This document shows positions 3,833-18,665 of a stretch of DNA of 35,199 bases, piece after piece. The DNA lies in IMG/VR virus record IMGVR_UViG_3300020470_000081, positions 1 through 35,199 of that record. One strand, written 5' to 3'. Origin of the DNA: a virus. The position numbers and the translations under genes were made by a program. The stretch's first letter is position 1. Each line of letters begins with the position of its first letter. Under the pieces are notes generated by a model, which was not told the origin of the DNA, ran no database searches, and was given only the letters and a program-made list of their open reading frames with translations.

Positions 3833-5254
3833 TTACATGAGGTTCTTAACAGAAACACGTCTGTAGTAACGGTTAGAGTTAACGTCAAGATCGCCATTAC
3901 CTTTTGTAAGACCTTCAGCGAATGGGTTTGCAACCATACCGTATCTTGTCTTAAAGCCGATCTTAGGCTGGAATGAATTCTCTCCAACTGCACGAACCAT
4001 CTGTAGTGGAACGTATGGGCAATAGAATAATCCAGCGTCATAAGGAGAAGTACCCTTATAACCAACAACATAGTACTGATTACCAGGTGTGCCGTTACCA
4101 GCAGTTAGGTTAGCAGCATATGGGTCGATGTAGACCTTGTACTTACCTTGTAGAGTACCAGCAAATGTGTTACCAGTATCATCAACATTAAGGTTAGCAT
4201 TAAGTGCAGGAGTGTAGTCAAGTACACCAGCCATTGTTAGTGCAGAAGCAACGTCAGCAGAACAAAGGATGATGTTACCCTTTCCACGACGAGTTCTCTG
4301 TGCGATAGCGTTTGCATCACGCTCGATTTGGAATAGAAGTCCCTTGAACTTCTCAACTGACCAACGACCATTACTGTCGATATCTAGGTCAAATATTCCT
4401 GGAGTTGCAACGTTCTGTGCAGCACCCTGTTCAGCAGTCTTGTAGATAGTTCTAATAACTTCTCTGTTGATTTCCGCAAGGATCTCAGTAGAAAGGATAT
4501 TAGCAAGTTCTGCTTCAGCGTTCAATCCGTGGATTGCCTTAAGGTCTTGAGCAAGCTCTAGTGAGTACTCAGCCTTTAACGCACGAGATTTCGCAGTAAC
4601 TGTTACTTTCTCGATGCTGAATGCCATCTGGTTGAAGGCATCGTTGCCTGTACCATCAAGTCCTTCAGCAGAATCAGTACGTAGACCCTGACCTGTGTTA
4701 TATGCTTTCTGTGTAGCAGTAGTTGAAGGGTTCAACGCACCTGGGTTAGATCCAGCCTGTGATGTTGTACCCATACCAACGGCAGCATCAGTGAAGCCGT
4801 TTGCATCATCAAGTCCCTTAGGCTGACCTGAGAATGCTGTGTTTACTTCGTCGTAGAATGTCTCAGCACCATCGTTAGATGTATAGCGAGATCTCATTGC
4901 GAAGATAAGTCCAGTAGGACCACTCATTGGTTGAACACCAGCAAGGTCATAAGCGACCAAGTTTGGCATAGAACGACGAATAAGTGAGATCAATACAGGG
5001 TCGAAACCTTGCATTGCACCTGTTGTAGCAGCACCAAGACCTGGATTAGCACCAGATGCTGTGTTGTTTGTTGGAACTGCTTCTGTTAAGAATGAGCCAG
5101 ACTCATTAAATGCTGACTGTTCTCTTTGGAATTTTTCTTGGTTTTCGAGCAGGACGGCTGTAACCGCTTTTCTATGGGGATCCTTAATTGGTTCTGAACC
5201 TTCATGGTTAAGAAGTGGAGCCCACTTTTCCTGCAACTGTTCTGAATGGAACAT
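3833..5254 (-). CDS. 23: gp23 major capsid protein
   Basis: This 473-residue protein is the hexameric shell protein of T4-like heads. The N-terminus has the T4-type pattern LQEKWAPLL and LLENQEK, then GSFLTEA. The site L56-T57-E58|A59 fits the gp21 protease rule (I/L)-x-E|(A/G), so about 58 residues would be removed on maturation, close to the T4 value. The next block, RRSMPNLVAYDLAGVQPM, is the most conserved gp23 signature. T4 gp23 is 521 residues; the shorter size is typical of marine relatives. The start at ATG 5254 has AGGTAAC upstream. No TATAAATA octamer stands directly before it, so it is probably read from the gp22 promoter. Its base composition is visibly more GC-rich than its neighbours. 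Confidence 0.96.
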   Translation of the reverse strand: MFHSEQLQEKWAPLLNHEGSEPIKDPHRKAVTAVLLENQEKFQREQSAFNESGSFLTEAVPTNNTASGANPGLGAATTGAMQGFDPVLISLIRRSMPNLVAYDLAGVQPMSGPTGLIFAMRSRYTSNDGAETFYDEVNTAFSGQPKGLDDANGFTDAAVGMGTTSQAGSNPGALNPSTTATQKAYNTGQGLRTDSAEGLDGTGNDAFNQMAFSIEKVTVTAKSRALKAEYSLELAQDLKAIHGLNAEAELANILSTEILAEINREVIRTIYKTAEQGAAQNVATPGIFDLDIDSNGRWSVEKFKGLLFQIERDANAIAQRTRRGKGNIILCSADVASALTMAGVLDYTPALNANLNVDDTGNTFAGTLQGKYKVYIDPYAANLTAGNGTPGNQYYVVGYKGTSPYDAGLFYCPYVPLQMVRAVGENSFQPKIGFKTRYGMVANPFAEGLTKGNGDLDVNSNRYYRRVSVKNLM

Positions 5255-5297: not shown

Positions 5298-6422
5298 TTA
5301 TTTGTTAAGACTAGAAAGTGTCTTTAAATAATGAGCCATTGTACCAGATGCTACTGCTTCTGATGAATCGACTCCTTCTGATAAACTCTCTGACTTAACT
5401 GCTGGAGTTGATTTTGTAGGGAAATAAGATTCCTTTAATGTCTCCAACTTGTCACGATATTGTGTCTCACTATCAAACTCTACACTTTCAGCAAGTGAAG
5501 CGAGCTTCTCTTTCTGAGTAGCAGCAAGGCCATCAGAAACAGACTCAAGAATGCTATCGGCAACAGACTCTGCAAGTCTCTTGTTTAAACCGACATTCTT
5601 CTCAATTTGCTCATTGAGCTTGGTCTCCATGTCATCTAGTTTTTCTACCATACTCTGTAGTACATCATATTTTTCTTCAGGGATTGATACATAATGTTCT
5701 TCAAAAAGACTCTTAAGACCAGTCATAAAGGATTCTGTAAGTTCTTCCTTAAGACCGCCTTCTACTGCGAGTTGATTCTCAGTGAACCACTCTTCAGCCA
5801 CATATTCTAGGTAGGAATCAACACGCTCGTTAAGAGCACCTTTGATTTCCTCGACTTCCTCGACGAGTTTTTTCTCGTAATCAGACTCAAGGTTTTCCTT
5901 GATCTGTGTTACTTTGCCTTTAATGGCTGCTTCAAGAATTGTTTTTGCTTTGTTCTTGAAATCTTCGGAAAGTTCTTCACCTTCTACAAGAGCAGTAACA
6001 TCTTCTTCGATGTCAATCTCTGTGTAATCAGGTGCTTCAGCAACAACTTCCTCTTCAGTAGTCTCTTCTTCAGATACCACTTCTTCAGTTGTTGTTTCTT
6101 CTTCTGCTACTACTTCATCTGTAGTAGTCTCTTCTTCCTCAATAACTTCCTCGGAAGTTTCAACTTCTTCTGCTTTAACAGCCTTCTTGTTAACTACATC
6201 CCTAACTTGCTTCAACGTACCAGCAGCATCCTTAAGTTTTGCTGAGTCGTTAGTTGGACTATAGTTTTCTGGTGTTGGACCGCCAAGGTCTTCCACTGTA
6301 GGTGGTGTTCCACCAGTGGAAAGCTTCTCCATAGGCTGAGCTGGTGCTGCGTTAGCATTTACTGCAGTCTTGGATTGCTTAACGTCCTCTTCCATTGCTT
6401 GTAAGTTTTTGTCACTAGACAT
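5298..6422 (-). CDS. 22: gp22 prohead core scaffold
   Basis: This 374-residue acidic protein lies between gp21 and gp23, the fixed position of the main scaffold. The N-terminal ~80 residues are disordered-looking. Residues ~86-130 form an 11-residue tandem repeat rich in Glu, Val and Thr. The remainder is a long, mostly helical and coiled-coil region (LSEDFKNKAKTILEAA, SYLEYVAEEWF, LKSLFEEHYVSIPEE) matching marine gp22. Scaffold is cut to small peptides by gp21; candidate sites include LVE|G and LSE|G. The start ATG 6422 has GGAG 9 bases upstream, and a perfect TATAAATA lies about 45 bases upstream. The C-terminus is longer and more acidic upstream than in T4 (269 residues). Confidence 0.92.
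   Translation of the reverse strand: MSSDKNLQAMEEDVKQSKTAVNANAAPAQPMEKLSTGGTPPTVEDLGGPTPENYSPTNDSAKLKDAAGTLKQVRDVVNKKAVKAEEVETSEEVIEEEETTTDEVVAEEETTTEEVVSEEETTEEEVVAEAPDYTEIDIEEDVTALVEGEELSEDFKNKAKTILEAAIKGKVTQIKENLESDYEKKLVEEVEEIKGALNERVDSYLEYVAEEWFTENQLAVEGGLKEELTESFMTGLKSLFEEHYVSIPEEKYDVLQSMVEKLDDMETKLNEQIEKNVGLNKRLAESVADSILESVSDGLAATQKEKLASLAESVEFDSETQYRDKLETLKESYFPTKSTPAVKSESLSEGVDSSEAVASGTMAHYLKTLSSLNK
6037..6150 (-). repeat. 33-base tandem repeat in the scaffold gene
   Basis: The translated repeat has hydrophobic pairs at residues 93-94, 104-105, 115-116 and 126-127, an exact 11-residue period. Each pair is followed by a run of Glu and Thr. At DNA level this is a degenerate 33-base unit rich in GAA/GAG and ACT/ACA. 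Confidence 0.75.
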
Positions 6423-6466: not shown

Positions 6467-6474
6467 TATTTATA
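6467..6474 (-). promoter_or_regulatory. late promoter TATAAATA for gp22-gp23
   Basis: There is a perfect T4 late-promoter octamer on the minus strand. A second overlapping copy, AATAAATA, lies at 6463-6470. The predicted leader to gp22 is about 39 bases and contains a good GGAG. Confidence 0.75.
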
Positions 6475-6484
6475 ATGTAAGACT

Positions 6485-7135
6485 TTACAATGAGTTAATA
6501 AACTCATTAAAGAGATCTAATTTGTTCTCTTCTAGCCTTTTTTGATCAACTAAAGTGTTAATTCTCCTCTTTGTATCAGAGGCTAATTTTTCTCTGAGTA
6601 TGCTTCCTTCCCATACCCACTCTTTACCTTCCATAATTCCCTCAACAAATGCATCGGGAGCAGAAGGATCAGCAACTATATCTGCTGCTGTTGCTAACAT
6701 AAAGTCTTCACCAACAACATTGAATCCCTCTTTGGTTGGTTTTAATGAACCAATACCACGAGAGGAAACACCGAGTTTTACACCTTCCTCTATAAGATTA
6801 GATGCAATTTTACCCATTGGTGTATTCAAAATTTTTGCTTTTCCAATAAAATTAGAACCACTTTCTTTTAGTGATACAATCTTGTGTGAAACACGATCAA
6901 GATTAACAGTTGGGCCATCAGGATGACCTAATTCCCCAAGTGCTCTACCACTTACAATATTAGACTCATTATATCTTTCGACCTCTTTGCGAAGAGTGTC
7001 TAATGGATACATTCTTCCGTTACGGTTTTTGATATTACCTTGAAGGAATATACCTTCTATAAAAAGAGATTTTTTACCTCCTTTTGCTTCAGTAATAATC
7101 TTTACCGATTCAATTTCTTCTCTTATGAGTTTCAT
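6485..7135 (-). CDS. 21: gp21 prohead maturation protease
   Basis: This is a 216-residue serine protease of the gp21 prohead protease family (T4: 212). The catalytic residues are recognisable: H71 in GELGHPDG, a serine in GVSSRG (S124 or S125), and an acidic residue in AADIVADPSAPDAF (D152 or D156). It has a likely self-cleavage site near the N-terminus, I14-T15-E16|A17, that fits its own specificity. It degrades the scaffold and trims gp23 inside the prohead. The start ATG 7135 has CGGAAT upstream and a perfect TATAAATA octamer about 32 bases upstream. It lies between the gp67-like gene and gp22, as in T4. Confidence 0.95.
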   Translation of the reverse strand: MKLIREEIESVKIITEAKGGKKSLFIEGIFLQGNIKNRNGRMYPLDTLRKEVERYNESNIVSGRALGELGHPDGPTVNLDRVSHKIVSLKESGSNFIGKAKILNTPMGKIASNLIEEGVKLGVSSRGIGSLKPTKEGFNVVGEDFMLATAADIVADPSAPDAFVEGIMEGKEWVWEGSILREKLASDTKRRINTLVDQKRLEENKLDLFNEFINSL

Positions 7136-7166: not shown

Positions 7167-7174
7167 TATTTATA
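7167..7174 (-). promoter_or_regulatory. late promoter TATAAATA for gp21
   Basis: There is a perfect late-promoter octamer on the minus strand in the 40-base gap between the gp67-like gene and gp21. The predicted leader is about 26 bases. Confidence 0.75.
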
Positions 7175-7446: not shown

Positions 7447-7454
7447 TATTTATA
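7447..7454 (-). promoter_or_regulatory. late promoter TATAAATA for the gp67-like gene
   Basis: There is a perfect octamer on the minus strand, overlapping the gp20 stop. The predicted leader to ATG 7418 is about 23 bases. Confidence 0.75.
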
Positions 7455-12025: not shown

Positions 12026-13681
12026 TTACGACAGGTATTCCCACATATATGTTTTATCGCCATACTCATCTGCCTTAAACCATCTATCCCCATCATCATC
12101 AACAAAGTTATCTTCACCCATTCCATCATCCATAAATCCAAATGGAGCCATGTCTTGTTCAATTGCATTTCTCTGTTCTTCATATAACCTTTTTCTTACA
12201 TCTTGATCAGTAAGTTCTTTAAAATAATCAGTTTGAACTAACCATGCATATATTACCAAGCACATTGCAAGGTCATCATGACACCCTTCTTCTGCTTCAA
12301 ATGAATTACTTTTTTGAATGAATGTCGTCAATTCACTCATGATATCATAATCACAAGATAATAACTTATCAGATTCAATAAGAGTTTTTAAATTAAGAGC
12401 ACCAACTTTCTTAACAGTTTTTGACATCTTAACTCCAAGTTGAGTCTTCTTACCAGAGAATCCCTGACCAACAACTTGTCCTGCTCTACCTCTCATAGAA
12501 CACATAAGAAGATTTTTATATTCCATATCATAGTTTAATATAGATGCTACCTGATCTCCTATATCATTTACTTCACATAAAATGAATGCATCATTATAAC
12601 TCTTTCCTACCTCCTCAATAATACTTGGGAAAAGCATTGGTTTAATTTCATTATTTCTATACTTTGCTACTACAGAATGAGGGAATTCTGAGATATCGAT
12701 TACAACAAAGGCTGAGTAGTCTTTATTTACTCCTCTTGCAACGTCAACAGTTATAGCATAATCATGTCCTTTTTGTGGATCAACATAAACATCAAGACCA
12801 GCATTTGTTTTTTCTGGTGTTTGATATACCATACTCCGCAATTTACTTGGAGCAATTAGTGTATCAACAGATCCTAAGAACTCACATTCAAACTCAACTT
12901 TGAACTGTTGTTCTGATGTGTTTGCAATCGTTTGTTCTTTCCAAACTTCGTCTCTACCAGGAACTTGACTCCAATGCACATCCGTTGGTACATATTCATT
13001 CTTACTTTTTTCTGCATCGTGCCACATGCGGTAGAAATGATTCATACCGTGCGGTGTAGAAACTATAATTACTTTTGTATTTTGACCAGAAGTAATAGTA
13101 GGATAAACACTAGCAAAGAAAGAATCAGCGATGTGATTGGGAACAAAAGCAAACTCATCCAAGAAGAGGATGTTGAAAGACATACCCCGAACAGCACTAG
13201 CACTAGTGGAAGCCGCCAAGATTTTACTACCATTTTCTAACTCCAGTGAACCTCTATTCCATGACAAGACACCTTGCTGCATCCACTTAGGAACATTCTC
13301 ATATGCAGTTTGTAATCTACCAAGCAGTTCTCTTGCAGTTGCTGCCTTGTTAGCAAGGATACCAATATTTACACTATCATTAAAAAGTAGATAATGTAAA
13401 AGATATGATATAACAGTTGTAGACTTACCAGTCTGACGAGGCATCTTACAAATGTTAAATCTATTTTCGTGGAAATTATTAATTAATTCTTGTTGAAAAT
13501 CATATGGTTCAAAAGGCATCAAACCATGATCAAGAGTAACAATCTTTACATGTTTTTGAGCAAAATAAACAGGATCATTCTTACATGCCATAAACTCAAG
13601 AATTTGTTCTTGAGTAAATTCTATTGGGGTATTTGCCCGTTTTAGATTCGGGTTACCTAAGTAAATGTCATGTTCTGCCAT
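12026..13681 (-). CDS. 17: gp17 large terminase (packaging ATPase and nuclease)
   Basis: This 551-residue protein (T4: 610) is the DNA-packaging motor. The ATPase shows Walker A MPRQTGKST (80-88), Walker B ILFLDE (171-176) with catalytic E176, and coupling motif STP (208-210). The RNase H-like nuclease shows D313 (VDVARG), E370 (FILCEVND) and D469/D470 (GCHDDLAM), the triad used to cut concatemers. The acidic Asp/Gly-rich C-terminus is family-typical. It starts at ATG 13681. It is split from its partner gp16 by a cassette of four virion genes, whereas gp16 and gp17 are adjacent in T4. No clear late octamer is seen before it. Confidence 0.96.
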   Translation of the reverse strand: MAEHDIYLGNPNLKRANTPIEFTQEQILEFMACKNDPVYFAQKHVKIVTLDHGLMPFEPYDFQQELINNFHENRFNICKMPRQTGKSTTVISYLLHYLLFNDSVNIGILANKAATARELLGRLQTAYENVPKWMQQGVLSWNRGSLELENGSKILAASTSASAVRGMSFNILFLDEFAFVPNHIADSFFASVYPTITSGQNTKVIIVSTPHGMNHFYRMWHDAEKSKNEYVPTDVHWSQVPGRDEVWKEQTIANTSEQQFKVEFECEFLGSVDTLIAPSKLRSMVYQTPEKTNAGLDVYVDPQKGHDYAITVDVARGVNKDYSAFVVIDISEFPHSVVAKYRNNEIKPMLFPSIIEEVGKSYNDAFILCEVNDIGDQVASILNYDMEYKNLLMCSMRGRAGQVVGQGFSGKKTQLGVKMSKTVKKVGALNLKTLIESDKLLSCDYDIMSELTTFIQKSNSFEAEEGCHDDLAMCLVIYAWLVQTDYFKELTDQDVRKRLYEEQRNAIEQDMAPFGFMDDGMGEDNFVDDDGDRWFKADEYGDKTYMWEYLS

Positions 13682-13697
13682 AATAATAAAATATTAA

Positions 13698-13952
13698 TTA
13701 TCTATTCGTATAGATTAAAGGATCTCCAGTTTCATGATCGGTTACATCATAACTAAAAACTTTTGAATTAGGATAAACCTTATTTAATTCAACTTGAATA
13801 TCTCTTCTTGACGGAATCTTTATTTGAGGAAAAAACATTTTAATCATATATCTCTTCCCTCTCCAACCAAAAATAATACGCATAACAACTCCAACCTTCC
13901 TGTTAAGGATTGTCTTTGATGCTTCTGAAATAAATTGGTTGAGATCTTTCAT
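13698..13952 (-). CDS. small basic protein with capsid-targeting-like N-terminus
   Basis: This 84-residue protein is not recognised as a named family. It begins MKDLNQFISEA, which resembles the capsid-targeting sequences of T4 internal head proteins (MKTYQEF-type, ending in a gp21 site). I8-S9-E10|A11 fits the gp21 cleavage rule. The predicted mature 74 residues are basic (14 Lys/Arg against 6 Asp/Glu), as expected for a DNA-associated internal protein. The middle part, FGWRGKRYMIKMFFPQIK, looks like a short beta hairpin. No Shine-Dalgarno is seen; a CATAAATA octamer ends 6 bases before the ATG. Not a small terminase: gp16 is found elsewhere. A packaged, co-injected protein is inference, and it could also be an ordinary head or tail protein. 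Confidence 0.7.
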   Translation of the reverse strand: MKDLNQFISEASKTILNRKVGVVMRIIFGWRGKRYMIKMFFPQIKIPSRRDIQVELNKVYPNSKVFSYDVTDHETGDPLIYTNR

Positions 13953-14667: not shown

Positions 14668-17600
14668 TTAACTTAATGCCAATATAAATGGTGTCATTTC
14701 AGCGAATAAACTTTTACTAAAAGCTCTTCCACTGATTGTACCTGTATTTTGGTTGATTTGTAAATCATTACCTATTCTAAAATTACCTGCTTGGTCTGTA
14801 CTTGTGTAAATTACCACACCTCCATCAGATGAAATAACTTCATTTTCCTGAACAGTAACCCCACCACGTTTAGGAGTAGCAGATGTAATATTATTACCTG
14901 CACCAACATACTCAAATGTATGTGAACTTGCAATAATTTTACTTTGTTGGAAAAAGTATACTGTAGATCCTACACCAACTGTATTCAATAAATTTGTATC
15001 AAGAGTTAGAGTGGATATTCCAGACACCACTGGGGTTGAACTATTTATTGTGTAATAAATAGACGACATATTGGCAGTTGCAGATGCACCAGATCCACCT
15101 CCTCCACTAATAGTTACATTTGGTGTTGAAGTATATTGATTACCACTACTAATAAGAGTAATAGAAGAAACAGAATCACCTTCTAGAGTTGCAAATGCAG
15201 TAGCAGTTTCTCCCGTTGGTGAAGCATCAATTGTTACTTCTGGAGTTGATGTATATCCTGTTCCACCAGATGTAACAGTAATACTTTCTACGGTTTTATA
15301 TAAAGTATCGAAATAAGCCACTTGCCCATCATAAGGTCTATCTATATCAACTTTTGCAGTTCCACCAGAAACATAAGTATGAGCAAGAGTAGATATTCCA
15401 ACATTAACTACAAATTTTCTAGCAGTTGGTATTTCATCAACTTCAAAAATATATGGATTCTTATGTGGATATGTTTTAGATCCATATGCACATGTTAAAC
15501 CAATACCTGCAAGAGTAACACCCATTCCAACTGAAAAACTATGGTCTGCAGTTGTTGTTACAGTAGCTACACCTGTCTGATGGGTATATTGGAAATTGGA
15601 TATGTTTAAAGTAGGAGTACTTAAATTAACAGTAACATTATCTTGCGATACAGCAGCCTCTGAACTAACAGTACCAGTAAATTGCAATGCACCAGTTCCA
15701 CGAGAAACTAATCCCTTTGTTCCAAAACTACAGTTACTATTTGCAAGGTCTGCTTGACCACCAGCATCACATGAAATTGCTTCATCGCAGCAAATAGTGA
15801 ATACAGAAACTAACTGAGCAAATCCACTATTAGTTACAGCAACACCAACTCCACCTTGATTGTATTGAGTGAATGAGTCAACATTCATTGCTTTTAATGA
15901 CCTTGCTTGTTTTCCATCAATACGAATACCAACTCCTGTAGTTGTATCACTTGTACAGTTCTGAACATATGGTCCTTTCCATTTACCACCACCTACATTT
16001 TCTGCAATTTCAGTAGTAGGGAATCCAACAGCAGCTGCAGGTGCAGTATGTCCACTAAATGTCATATTTGCGAGTTTACATCCTTTCCTTACATGGAATA
16101 AATCTTTATTTGTTGTATTTGGAAGTACTTTTACGGATCTTTGGTCATCACCAACAACAGCAACAAATGCAGGAAGTTCTATTGGATTTTGCTCAACATA
16201 ATTACCAGAAAGAACTTTAACTGTTGATCCAGACTCAGCAATACCAACAGCAGCTTTAATAGTTAAAAATGCATTGTCAATAGATGTTCCATTATTAGTA
16301 TCATTACCATCCTTAGCGACATAATAGACATTAGGTGCAGAGTTAATACCAGATGCTGTAGAATCAATACTTACATTATCACCAACAGTAACTGATTCAT
16401 TAGTAATGGTAACAATACCAACACTGACCTGTTCTGCTTCACCATCAATAGTAATAGAAGATCTACCAACGGTAAGTACTCCAATAATCCTTGCATCACC
16501 ATCAACAATTAAGGTAGTATTACCAGATCCAACAAATACTGTTCCTACTCCACTAGTATCACCTATGGTAGTAACACCTGATAACCTAGCATTACGTTGG
16601 ATATCAAGATCTTTTCTACCAGTAATAATGCCAATAGAATCAACATTAATAATATCTTGTTTAGTTATAGTTCCTGCTACAGATATATTTCCTGTTATCT
16701 CAGCATCACCAAATACATATAACGCACTATCTAATCTTGCAGTAGATCCAATACCAACATTTTTGACAGTATGAATACCAACAGTACCTACTCCCCAAGT
16801 TCCAGCAACTCCAGTAGGTTGTTCTCCACCAGTGTTTACAACCCATTTTTGATTCTTTCTAGTATACTCTTGTCCATCTGAAGGGGCATCTTCTATACCA
16901 CCTCCACCAAATGAGGCTAGTTGTTGCTGAACTCTATTAACAAATAGTCTATAGTTCTCTTGAAGTTTTTCAAAGGTTACAAACTTCTGATCTAATGGTG
17001 TTAGTGGATCAGAATTATCTTCATCAGGAGGAATATTTAAAAGTCCCTCAGAAATAACTTCCTTATCAAACTTATTAAAAGTTTCTTCAAGTTTTTCAAT
17101 TTTATTTTGAAGACTTTGATTCTTTTCTTCAAATGAAGAATATATCTTTTTTATTTCACCATCATAAGATTTTGCTTCGGGTATCTTAATAGATGAAACT
17201 TTTTTAAATAAATTTACAATTTCCTTATTAAGGCCTTTAATTTCTTCATCATAATATTTTACTTCTGGAACTGTTGGTATAGAATCTTCTACATTTGATA
17301 TCTTATCTTTTAATTCTTGTATATCAACATCATAATACCTTATTTCAGGTATTGTTGGAATTTTATTAGATAGTTTTTCAAGTAATTCCTTTACTTCATC
17401 AATATCATTATCATAATGCTTTATCTCAGGTAGATTAGATAATGAAGATTCTATTTTCTTTATCTGAGATTCTATACTAGAAATTTCCTCATCATAATAC
17501 TTTATCTCAGGTATTTCAGGAACTGTAGGAATATCTTCCTTTACACCTTCAATTAGATCTAATATTAAATTTAATTCTTTTTCATAATATCTTACTTCAG

Positions 17601-18165
17601 GAACTTCTGGGATACTTTCCTTTACTTGTTCTATTAATCCTTTTATTTCATCTATCTGATCATCATATAAAACAGGTTCTGGGATAGTGGGAATCTCAGA
17701 ACGAACAAATTCAATTCTTTCTTTTAATGATGCGAGGTTTGAATTGATATTTGATGGATCAAATTGTTCAGGTATACTTCGTTCTACTTCTCTTATTTCA
17801 GAGCGAAGTATTGTAATATCTCCATCATAACTTGCCTTATCAGCAACAGTATCTATTCTTTCTTTTAAACTTTCTAATTTATTAAAAACTTCAGTTAAAT
17901 CTGTTTCTTCAGGAATTAACCCTACTACTGACTGTATATCAGACTTAAGTGAATTTATTTCTTCTAGATATGGATCAACTTTTACTTCTTCTGAAATTAT
18001 TGCAGCAGGTTCTTCTACGACCTTATTTTCACCAAAATGTTTCTTTGGAGCATCGATTTTTTTATTTTGTAATTTTTGTTCCTCTAATTTTTTTTGAGCC
18101 TGTTCTTCTTTCAAAGAATCATCTTTCTTTCTCTTAAAAAAATCCGAGGGATTTCTAATCGACAC
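14668..18165 (-). CDS. long tail-fibre-like protein: coiled-coil shaft, beta-helix, C-terminal domain
   Basis: This is a 1165-residue protein. The start is GTG at 18165, supported by AGAGG 7 bases upstream; no nearby ATG fits. Residues 1-60 are highly charged and lysine-rich. Residues ~85-345 form a coiled coil with a 27-residue repeat (see the repeat entry). A hinge at 420-440 has a GGGG and APSDGQEYTRKNQKWV. Residues ~455-605 are Gly/Val/Thr repeats. From ~611 (NVYYVAKDGNDTNNGTS) to ~830 there is a pectate-lyase-like parallel beta-helix (DUF1565-like opening). Two GxGY modules lie at ~960-1033, and the terminal GNFRIGNDLQINQNTG block is common at the ends of cyanophage fibre proteins. The likely role is host recognition or a head or neck fibre. 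It lies between gp16 and gp17, unlike T4. Confidence 0.82.
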   Translation of the reverse strand: MSIRNPSDFFKRKKDDSLKEEQAQKKLEEQKLQNKKIDAPKKHFGENKVVEEPAAIISEEVKVDPYLEEINSLKSDIQSVVGLIPEETDLTEVFNKLESLKERIDTVADKASYDGDITILRSEIREVERSIPEQFDPSNINSNLASLKERIEFVRSEIPTIPEPVLYDDQIDEIKGLIEQVKESIPEVPEVRYYEKELNLILDLIEGVKEDIPTVPEIPEIKYYDEEISSIESQIKKIESSLSNLPEIKHYDNDIDEVKELLEKLSNKIPTIPEIRYYDVDIQELKDKISNVEDSIPTVPEVKYYDEEIKGLNKEIVNLFKKVSSIKIPEAKSYDGEIKKIYSSFEEKNQSLQNKIEKLEETFNKFDKEVISEGLLNIPPDEDNSDPLTPLDQKFVTFEKLQENYRLFVNRVQQQLASFGGGGIEDAPSDGQEYTRKNQKWVVNTGGEQPTGVAGTWGVGTVGIHTVKNVGIGSTARLDSALYVFGDAEITGNISVAGTITKQDIINVDSIGIITGRKDLDIQRNARLSGVTTIGDTSGVGTVFVGSGNTTLIVDGDARIIGVLTVGRSSITIDGEAEQVSVGIVTITNESVTVGDNVSIDSTASGINSAPNVYYVAKDGNDTNNGTSIDNAFLTIKAAVGIAESGSTVKVLSGNYVEQNPIELPAFVAVVGDDQRSVKVLPNTTNKDLFHVRKGCKLANMTFSGHTAPAAAVGFPTTEIAENVGGGKWKGPYVQNCTSDTTTGVGIRIDGKQARSLKAMNVDSFTQYNQGGVGVAVTNSGFAQLVSVFTICCDEAISCDAGGQADLANSNCSFGTKGLVSRGTGALQFTGTVSSEAAVSQDNVTVNLSTPTLNISNFQYTHQTGVATVTTTADHSFSVGMGVTLAGIGLTCAYGSKTYPHKNPYIFEVDEIPTARKFVVNVGISTLAHTYVSGGTAKVDIDRPYDGQVAYFDTLYKTVESITVTSGGTGYTSTPEVTIDASPTGETATAFATLEGDSVSSITLISSGNQYTSTPNVTISGGGGSGASATANMSSIYYTINSSTPVVSGISTLTLDTNLLNTVGVGSTVYFFQQSKIIASSHTFEYVGAGNNITSATPKRGGVTVQENEVISSDGGVVIYTSTDQAGNFRIGNDLQINQNTGTISGRAFSKSLFAEMTPFILALS
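17130..17830 (-). repeat. 27-residue coiled-coil repeat (consensus PE-(I/V)-K-YYD-x-(E/D)-I)
   Basis: Tyr anchors occur at residues 113, 167, 194, 224, 251, 278, 305 and 334. The spacing from 167 is 27, 30, 27, 27, 27 and 29, and 113 to 167 is twice 27. Each unit is a ~20-residue helix capped by an IP-x-(I/V)-PE turn. The DNA repeat (about 81 bases) is degenerate. Confidence 0.85.
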
Positions 18166-18218: not shown

Positions 18219-18665
18219 TTACTGATTTTTCAAGTTTTCTTGTTTGATCATTTTTGCTAGTTCTGCAGTAGATCCAACAAATAATGCGTTGTTAGTTACA
18301 CTAGTTGGTGATTTTTTATCCTCCTCATTTACATCTTTTAATTTCTTTTGAAGATCCATTAACTTATCAGTTGCATCAGACACACTCTTAATAAGTTGTC
18401 CTGCAACTTCATATGCTCTTGGTTGCTCACTCTCCTGTGCAAGTTCAAGAATACCATCAATGGCTTCTTGACCCTTTTCAATTATACTATAAAGATTACC
18501 TCTTGTATATTCATAATCTTTAGATATATCATTTTTAGTTAATCTATCAGGTTTCTCAGGTCTGGTAACATTAGTAAGTTGTTCCTTCTTAGGAGAACAT
18601 CCATTTTCTGGAGTAGTAGATACTTCGACAGGAGTGATGTTAAATGCCTTATCTAATTGTTTCAT
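18219..18665 (-). CDS. 16: gp16 small terminase subunit
   Basis: This 148-residue protein (T4: 164) recognises DNA and regulates gp17. The central helices match T4 gp16: DYEYTRGNLYSIIEKGQEAI and ESEQPRAYEVAGQLIKSVSD, forming the antiparallel coiled-coil oligomerisation core. Next come LMDLQKKLKDV and a C-terminal NNALFVGSTAELAKMI, a near copy of the T4 ATVFMGSPTELMDEI pattern. The N-terminus is variable. The start ATG 18665 overlaps the gp15 stop by one base, so it is coupled to gp15. Its partner gp17 lies about 4.5 kb further downstream, beyond the fibre cassette. Confidence 0.9.
   Translation of the reverse strand: MKQLDKAFNITPVEVSTTPENGCSPKKEQLTNVTRPEKPDRLTKNDISKDYEYTRGNLYSIIEKGQEAIDGILELAQESEQPRAYEVAGQLIKSVSDATDKLMDLQKKLKDVNEEDKKSPTSVTNNALFVGSTAELAKMIKQENLKNQ

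Follow-up and report, generated by a model that had tools for sequence, protein, structure and literature searches.

Small internal head proteins that carry a targeting tag and are processed during head assembly are already known from bacteriophage T4. In the T4 record, both IPII and IPIII begin with MKTYQEFIAE|A and IPI begins with MKTFKEFTSTTTPVSTITE|A, where the bar marks the cut by the prohead protease gp21. Genetic work on T4 established that residues 1–10 of IPIII suffice for packaging, that targeting depends on residues 4 and 7 and processing on residues 8 and 10, and that Asp at position 10 blocks processing (PMC9026906). In giant phages of the phiKZ/SPN3US type, the ejection proteins of the head are likewise cleaved behind Glu by a protease resembling gp21. 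Their propeptides are mostly far longer (111–254 residues, with two of 20 and 24), and they are not known to carry an MK-x4-F tag. A third point of reference is T4-GC119 (PHROG 727/10346; S-SM2, Bellamy, S-SCSM1, S-B43), a group of multi-module proteins of 400–715 aa (DUF192, DUF6321, Cys/Lys-rich) that are encoded upstream of gp17 and recorded as "structural protein, cyanophage only". The S-SCSM1 version is labelled "virion protein"; the virion proteins of this phage were determined by mass spectrometry (PMC9602691), and the label presumably reflects such detection.

We analyzed a 35,199-base virus record (the window) that contains a T4-like run of structural genes on the minus strand in the order gp13-like, gp14, gp15, gp16, fibre genes, an 84-aa gene, gp17, gp18, gp19, gp20, gp21, gp22, gp23 and uvsY, with some of these names assigned from size and order (Table 1). 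The 84-aa gene lies at the coordinates given in the earlier note and begins at the first in-frame ATG, five codons after an upstream stop, in an open frame of 89 aa. Its product begins with MKDLNQFISEASKT and has the full sequence MKDLNQFISEASKTILNRKVGVVMRIIFGWRGKRYMIKMFFPQIKIPSRRDIQVELNKVYPNSKVFSYDVTDHETGDPLIYTNR. The start of gp17 follows 16 nt downstream, which agrees with the earlier note that had placed the gene beside the terminase. Among the fibre genes, positions 14668–18165 encode a large fibre-like protein with an N-terminal third of coiled-coil-like "YYDEEI...P.IPEI" repeats. Exact TATAAATA boxes resembling late promoters occur at 6467–6474, 7167–7174 and 7447–7454, 30–50 bases ahead of three head genes; with one mismatch allowed, this motif is not enriched above chance across the whole window.

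Table 1. Features of the window that bear on the 84-aa gene
Feature	Position	Strand	Basis
Candidate internal head protein gene, 84 aa	13698..13952	(-)	ORF, family, synteny, purifying selection
Propeptide MKDLNQFISE, residues 1-10, candidate capsid-targeting sequence	13923..13952	(-)	T4 IPII/IPIII match, tag sharing, site conservation
Predicted gp21 cut, E|A, codons 10/11 of the 84-aa gene	end of 13923..13952	(-)	Site conservation
Mature protein, residues 11-84, 74 aa, net +8	13701..13922	(-)	ORF translation, composition
Folded beta-beta-alpha-beta domain, residues 22-71 (WRGKxYMIKMFFP...KVYP)	13740..13889	(-)	AlphaFold2 model, invariant residues
gp17, terminase large subunit	12026..13681	(-)	PHROG terminase large subunit; synteny 147/148
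gp21 prohead protease, presumed processing enzyme	6485..7135	(-)	42% identity to T4 gp21; PDB 5jbl match; GELGHP and GVSSRG kept
Scaffold-like protein, gp22 position	5298..6422	(-)	Between gp21 and gp23; nine [hydrophobic]-x-E-[AGS] sites
gp23, major capsid protein, site FLTE58|A as T4 FLTE|A	3833..5254	(-)	Named from sequence and order
gp16, terminase small subunit, far end of the gp16-gp17 interval	18219..18665	(-)	Pfam DNA_Packaging 2e-7; PHROG 445 9e-54

Most differences between the 84-aa gene and its closest relatives fall on third codon positions. The ratio dN/dS is about 0.03 for relatives at 98–99% identity and about 0.2 for those at 67–69% identity (range about 0.03 to 0.24). These values near 0.03 and 0.2 identify the ORF as a gene under constraint. 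Kyanoviridae and contigs of marine viruses commonly carry a relative, which we found in 49 phage records and in at least 579 stretches of contigs, and gp17 lies directly downstream of the domain gene at 147 of the 148 loci with enough sequence, mostly within about 150 bases. What is conserved is a domain of about 50–60 residues that occurs alone, behind pieces such as MKKCPPGEYYC plus an Asn/Gly linker, or as part of proteins that are 400–715 aa long. The 84-aa protein has no match in Pfam, and in PHROGs it matches only families of unknown function, weakly. The proposal that the protein is undescribed needs to be narrowed: the domain is already part of T4-GC119 and of the S-SCSM1 "virion protein", but here it stands as a single domain behind a tag. 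The window protein shares with T4-GC119 this domain, the Glu site that precedes it, and the place before gp17, and it lacks the multi-module body ending in DUF6321 that GC119-type proteins have.

The N-terminus MKDLNQFISE|ASKT closely resembles those of the T4 internal proteins. It shares with them the MK start, F7, I8, E10, A11 and a propeptide of 10 residues, and the T4-critical positions are occupied by L4, F7, I8 and E10. Position 4, aromatic in T4, is Leu instead of Tyr or Phe; the same Leu4 is found in tagged genes of Bellamy, Sf-CH8 and S-SM2. The tag ends in I-S-E|A, which fits the pattern hydrophobic-x-E|A/G/S. Calculated from the amino-acid composition of the window, MK-x4-F-[ILVMF]-x-E-[AGS] is expected at a gene start by chance with a frequency of 8e-6 per gene, or 2e-4 over 26 genes. 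Like T4, the window phage has its own gp21, an ortholog that retains the catalytic His and Ser. The mature part is also small and, as the earlier note had stated, strongly basic (K7 R7 D4 E2). Unlike the T4 proteins, the window protein has another mature domain; its gene precedes gp17 whereas the T4 genes lie beside e/denV, and its host is probably a marine cyanobacterium.

We scanned the DNA of seven cyanophage records and that of T4 for the pattern MK-x4-F-[FLIMV]-x-E. Its only matches in the T4 genome are ipII and ipIII. The cyanophages contain ten matches in six of the seven genomes, and those that we looked up are gene starts. A reversed-pattern control gave zero matches. With other codons put in place of Glu, the pattern gave seven non-Glu matches over eight codons; some of these contain an in-frame stop and hence are not gene starts. 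Among the tagged cyanophage genes are T4-GC190 (cytidylyltransferase/NMNAT), genes for very basic proteins, and small ORFs adjoining GC119. Mass spectrometry has located T4-GC190 NMNAT in the virions of S-SM1 and S-SCSM1; a look for such data on the 84-aa protein or its close relatives yielded none. Members of PHROG 1742 (S-SCSM1_30, Sf-CH8_73) carry a related domain (hhalign 95%, E 4e-8) behind the canonical tag MKTFKQFMSE|S; they differ from the window protein by a longer linker and the absence of the MFFP core, and their genes adjoin the GC119 gene. The record of the tagged S-SCSM1 paralog SSCSM1_30 bears no virion-protein label.

A stricter form of the tag, MKxFxQF[FLIMV]xEA, occurs in at least 120 stretches of IMG/VR. 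Among the matches listed, 121 of 121 open an ORF of at least 45 aa; the bodies behind them form 28 mutually unrelated clusters, and 67 matches are NMNAT-like. The Asp-for-Glu form was found in only 15 stretches across the whole collection. The closest parallel to the window tag (MKDLNQFISEASKTIL) is MKSLNQFIEEAAKTVQ from the contig stretch L096, identical at 11 of 16 positions, which heads an unrelated KCPxGxYY body in the gp16–gp17 interval. In sister phages, the near-identical tag MKSLNQFIEEAAKT heads a different body within this interval. A single tag shared by many bodies is the picture expected of a capsid-targeting sequence. Since related marine viruses carry the tag on many proteins that are unrelated to one another, it may list proteins that are delivered into hosts. 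T4-like cyanophages are abundant in the ocean, and the tag provides a readable list of candidate head-borne proteins for proteomics: it selects only ipII and ipIII in T4, but a virion-associated nucleotidyltransferase and many unknown genes in cyanophages.

These neighbors also bear on the idea that the protein helps with packaging, either as a terminase accessory or as a linker between gp16 and gp17. Such a role would explain why the gene has its fixed place before gp17 at nearly all loci. Yet a partner of the terminase would need neither a prohead propeptide nor a gp21 site, and in sister phages the same interval is filled by unrelated tagged genes, which makes this role quite improbable.

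The earlier note had proposed to search relatives for the MK-x4-F motif. Conservation of the full tag is limited to relatives that are at least 67% identical, and most members of the family lack it. In contrast, the predicted cleavage site persists with other N-termini: a Glu site stands directly ahead of the domain in all 85 family proteins examined. Glu occupies P1 in all 52 distinct contexts. A hydrophobic residue (I, V, L, F, Y or M) stands at P3 in 50 of them, P2 shows no preference, and P1' is Ala in 38, Ser in 8, Lys in 3, Gly in 2 and Thr in 1 (Ala, Ser or Gly in 48). The search itself demanded Glu at P1 and one of A, G, S, T and K at P1', and it left P3 unconstrained. The putative family site thus follows the T4 gp21 pattern, also where the domain is internal in long proteins. 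In the AlphaFold model, residues 11–16 have pLDDT values below 50, and the Glu site lies in a low-pLDDT stretch. Because this site is outside the folded part (22–71), folding offers no obvious explanation for the invariant Glu, although part of this invariance could in principle reflect something besides cleavage. A chance resemblance of the N-terminus to a tag, with a Glu that is retained because folding or something else requires it, would be compatible with conservation of the full tag in close relatives only. With the low chance expectation, the position of the Glu outside the confident fold, and a P2 that varies freely next to P3, P1 and P1' residues that follow the gp21 pattern, we consider such a coincidence highly improbable.

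Taken together, the match to T4 IPII and IPIII, the occurrence of the tag on unrelated bodies, the near-invariant Glu site and the gp21 ortholog in the window give good support to the capsid-targeting and gp21-site reading that had been put forward. The 84-aa protein is thus probably an internal protein of the head, brought there by a capsid-targeting sequence of the T4 type and processed by gp21. From these features we infer its targeting, cleavage and packaging as follows. Residues 1–10 would draw the precursor into the prohead core. There the phage gp21 would cleave a disordered linker behind Glu10. The peptide would leave, and the basic beta-beta-alpha-beta domain would stay among the packaged DNA as a minor internal head protein. 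The domain is probably ejected with the DNA into the cyanobacterium, and most likely it would bind there to nucleic acid or to a host nucleic-acid enzyme early in infection; injection and target are guesses.

AlphaFold2 modeled residues 21–70 of the 84-aa protein with 10-residue block means of 89–96. Confident matches of the domain are limited to other cyanophage proteins, and a fold search of the PDB with the domain model gave no significant match. Loose look-alikes with Z values of about 5 are T7 Gp2, YkzG, eL20/LX and phi29 p6. Two of these raise the possibility that the protein binds host RNA polymerase through a T7 Gp2/YkzG-type fold, whether delivered with the DNA or made early: T7 Gp2 (4lk0_M) aligns with Z 5.5 over 50 of 51 residues at 2.5 Å, and YkzG (4njc_E) is the best Foldseek match (E 0.11; VIA Z 5.2). 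Both matches are non-significant and level with unrelated chains, and unrelated proteins of the same simple topology score alike, so that this function appears improbable. Charge and genomic setting favor contact with nucleic acid or with a host nucleic-acid enzyme, which is our guess for the mature domain.

It is rather unlikely, though by no means far-fetched, that the processed protein is kept in the virion in a structural or DNA-organising role and never injected. The same sequence evidence would apply, records of the family carry the labels structural protein or virion protein, and the fold of phi29 p6, a DNA-organising protein, is loosely similar (Z 4.8). On the other hand, published descriptions of the tagged T4 proteins class them as mobile internal proteins, and injection is known for IPI.

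The kind of protein is familiar from T4. New here are the tag repertoire of cyanophages, the domain, and the fact that multi-module proteins retain the site. In the long GC119 proteins, [hydrophobic]-x-E with a permitted P1' precedes 45 of 56 hand-defined module starts within 12 residues, compared to 17% of random positions; since these landmarks were hand-picked and the proteins are related, P values are descriptive only. The strict form [hydrophobic]-x-E-[AGS] occurs 0.84 times per 100 aa in the long proteins versus 0.40 after shuffling, and 0.353 versus 0.348 in other ORFs. Single modules also occur behind tags of their own (L104, L022, L218, L190). These sequence patterns suggest that GC119 proteins may be cut into modules. 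An AlphaFold model of a 591-aa polyprotein had a pLDDT of 36 and was not informative on module borders. We tentatively consider, as a possibility somewhat short of an even chance, that the gp16–gp17 interval of marine T4-like cyanophages is a cassette of head-borne effectors, made either as single tagged proteins or as GC119 polyproteins that gp21 cuts before each module, with several small basic proteins ejected along with the DNA. Retention of the site within multi-module virion proteins suggests that several proteins may be loaded from one precursor, a mode for which we found no description in the literature searched. These searches, whose coverage did not extend to subscription journals and preprints, returned no report of a cyanophage head polyprotein, no paper naming DUF6321, and only one T4 review that cites cyanophages in connection with capsid targeting.

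Several tagged loci are worth recording in their own right. At L032:3234-5231, gp17 is preceded by three genes with products that look processed: one starting MKTFKEFLQE|Q, one with the KCPPG module starting MKSLDRFIEE|A, and the domain gene. The gp16–gp17 interval here has the look of a cassette of head-borne proteins. The NMNAT-like gene of Bellamy (L164:1282-2517; MF351863 144781) is annotated 48 bases too short, and the in-frame start upstream bears the tag MKSLFQFLNEA. S-SM2_065 (L165:1023-1604) is very basic, carries the tag MKTLGQFLAEA, and has a neighbor whose annotation is type II restriction enzyme. One body, present in L289, L295, L299 and L303, has a tag with Asp at position 10 (MKTFKQFMADA). 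Since Asp10 in T4 IPIII targets yet blocks cleavage, this body may be packaged uncut. By eye, the tagged bodies of L175, L284, L257 and L190 resemble cell-wall enzymes of the RlpA-like and FlgJ-like kinds, an acetyltransferase, and a DUF6321 protein that stands alone.
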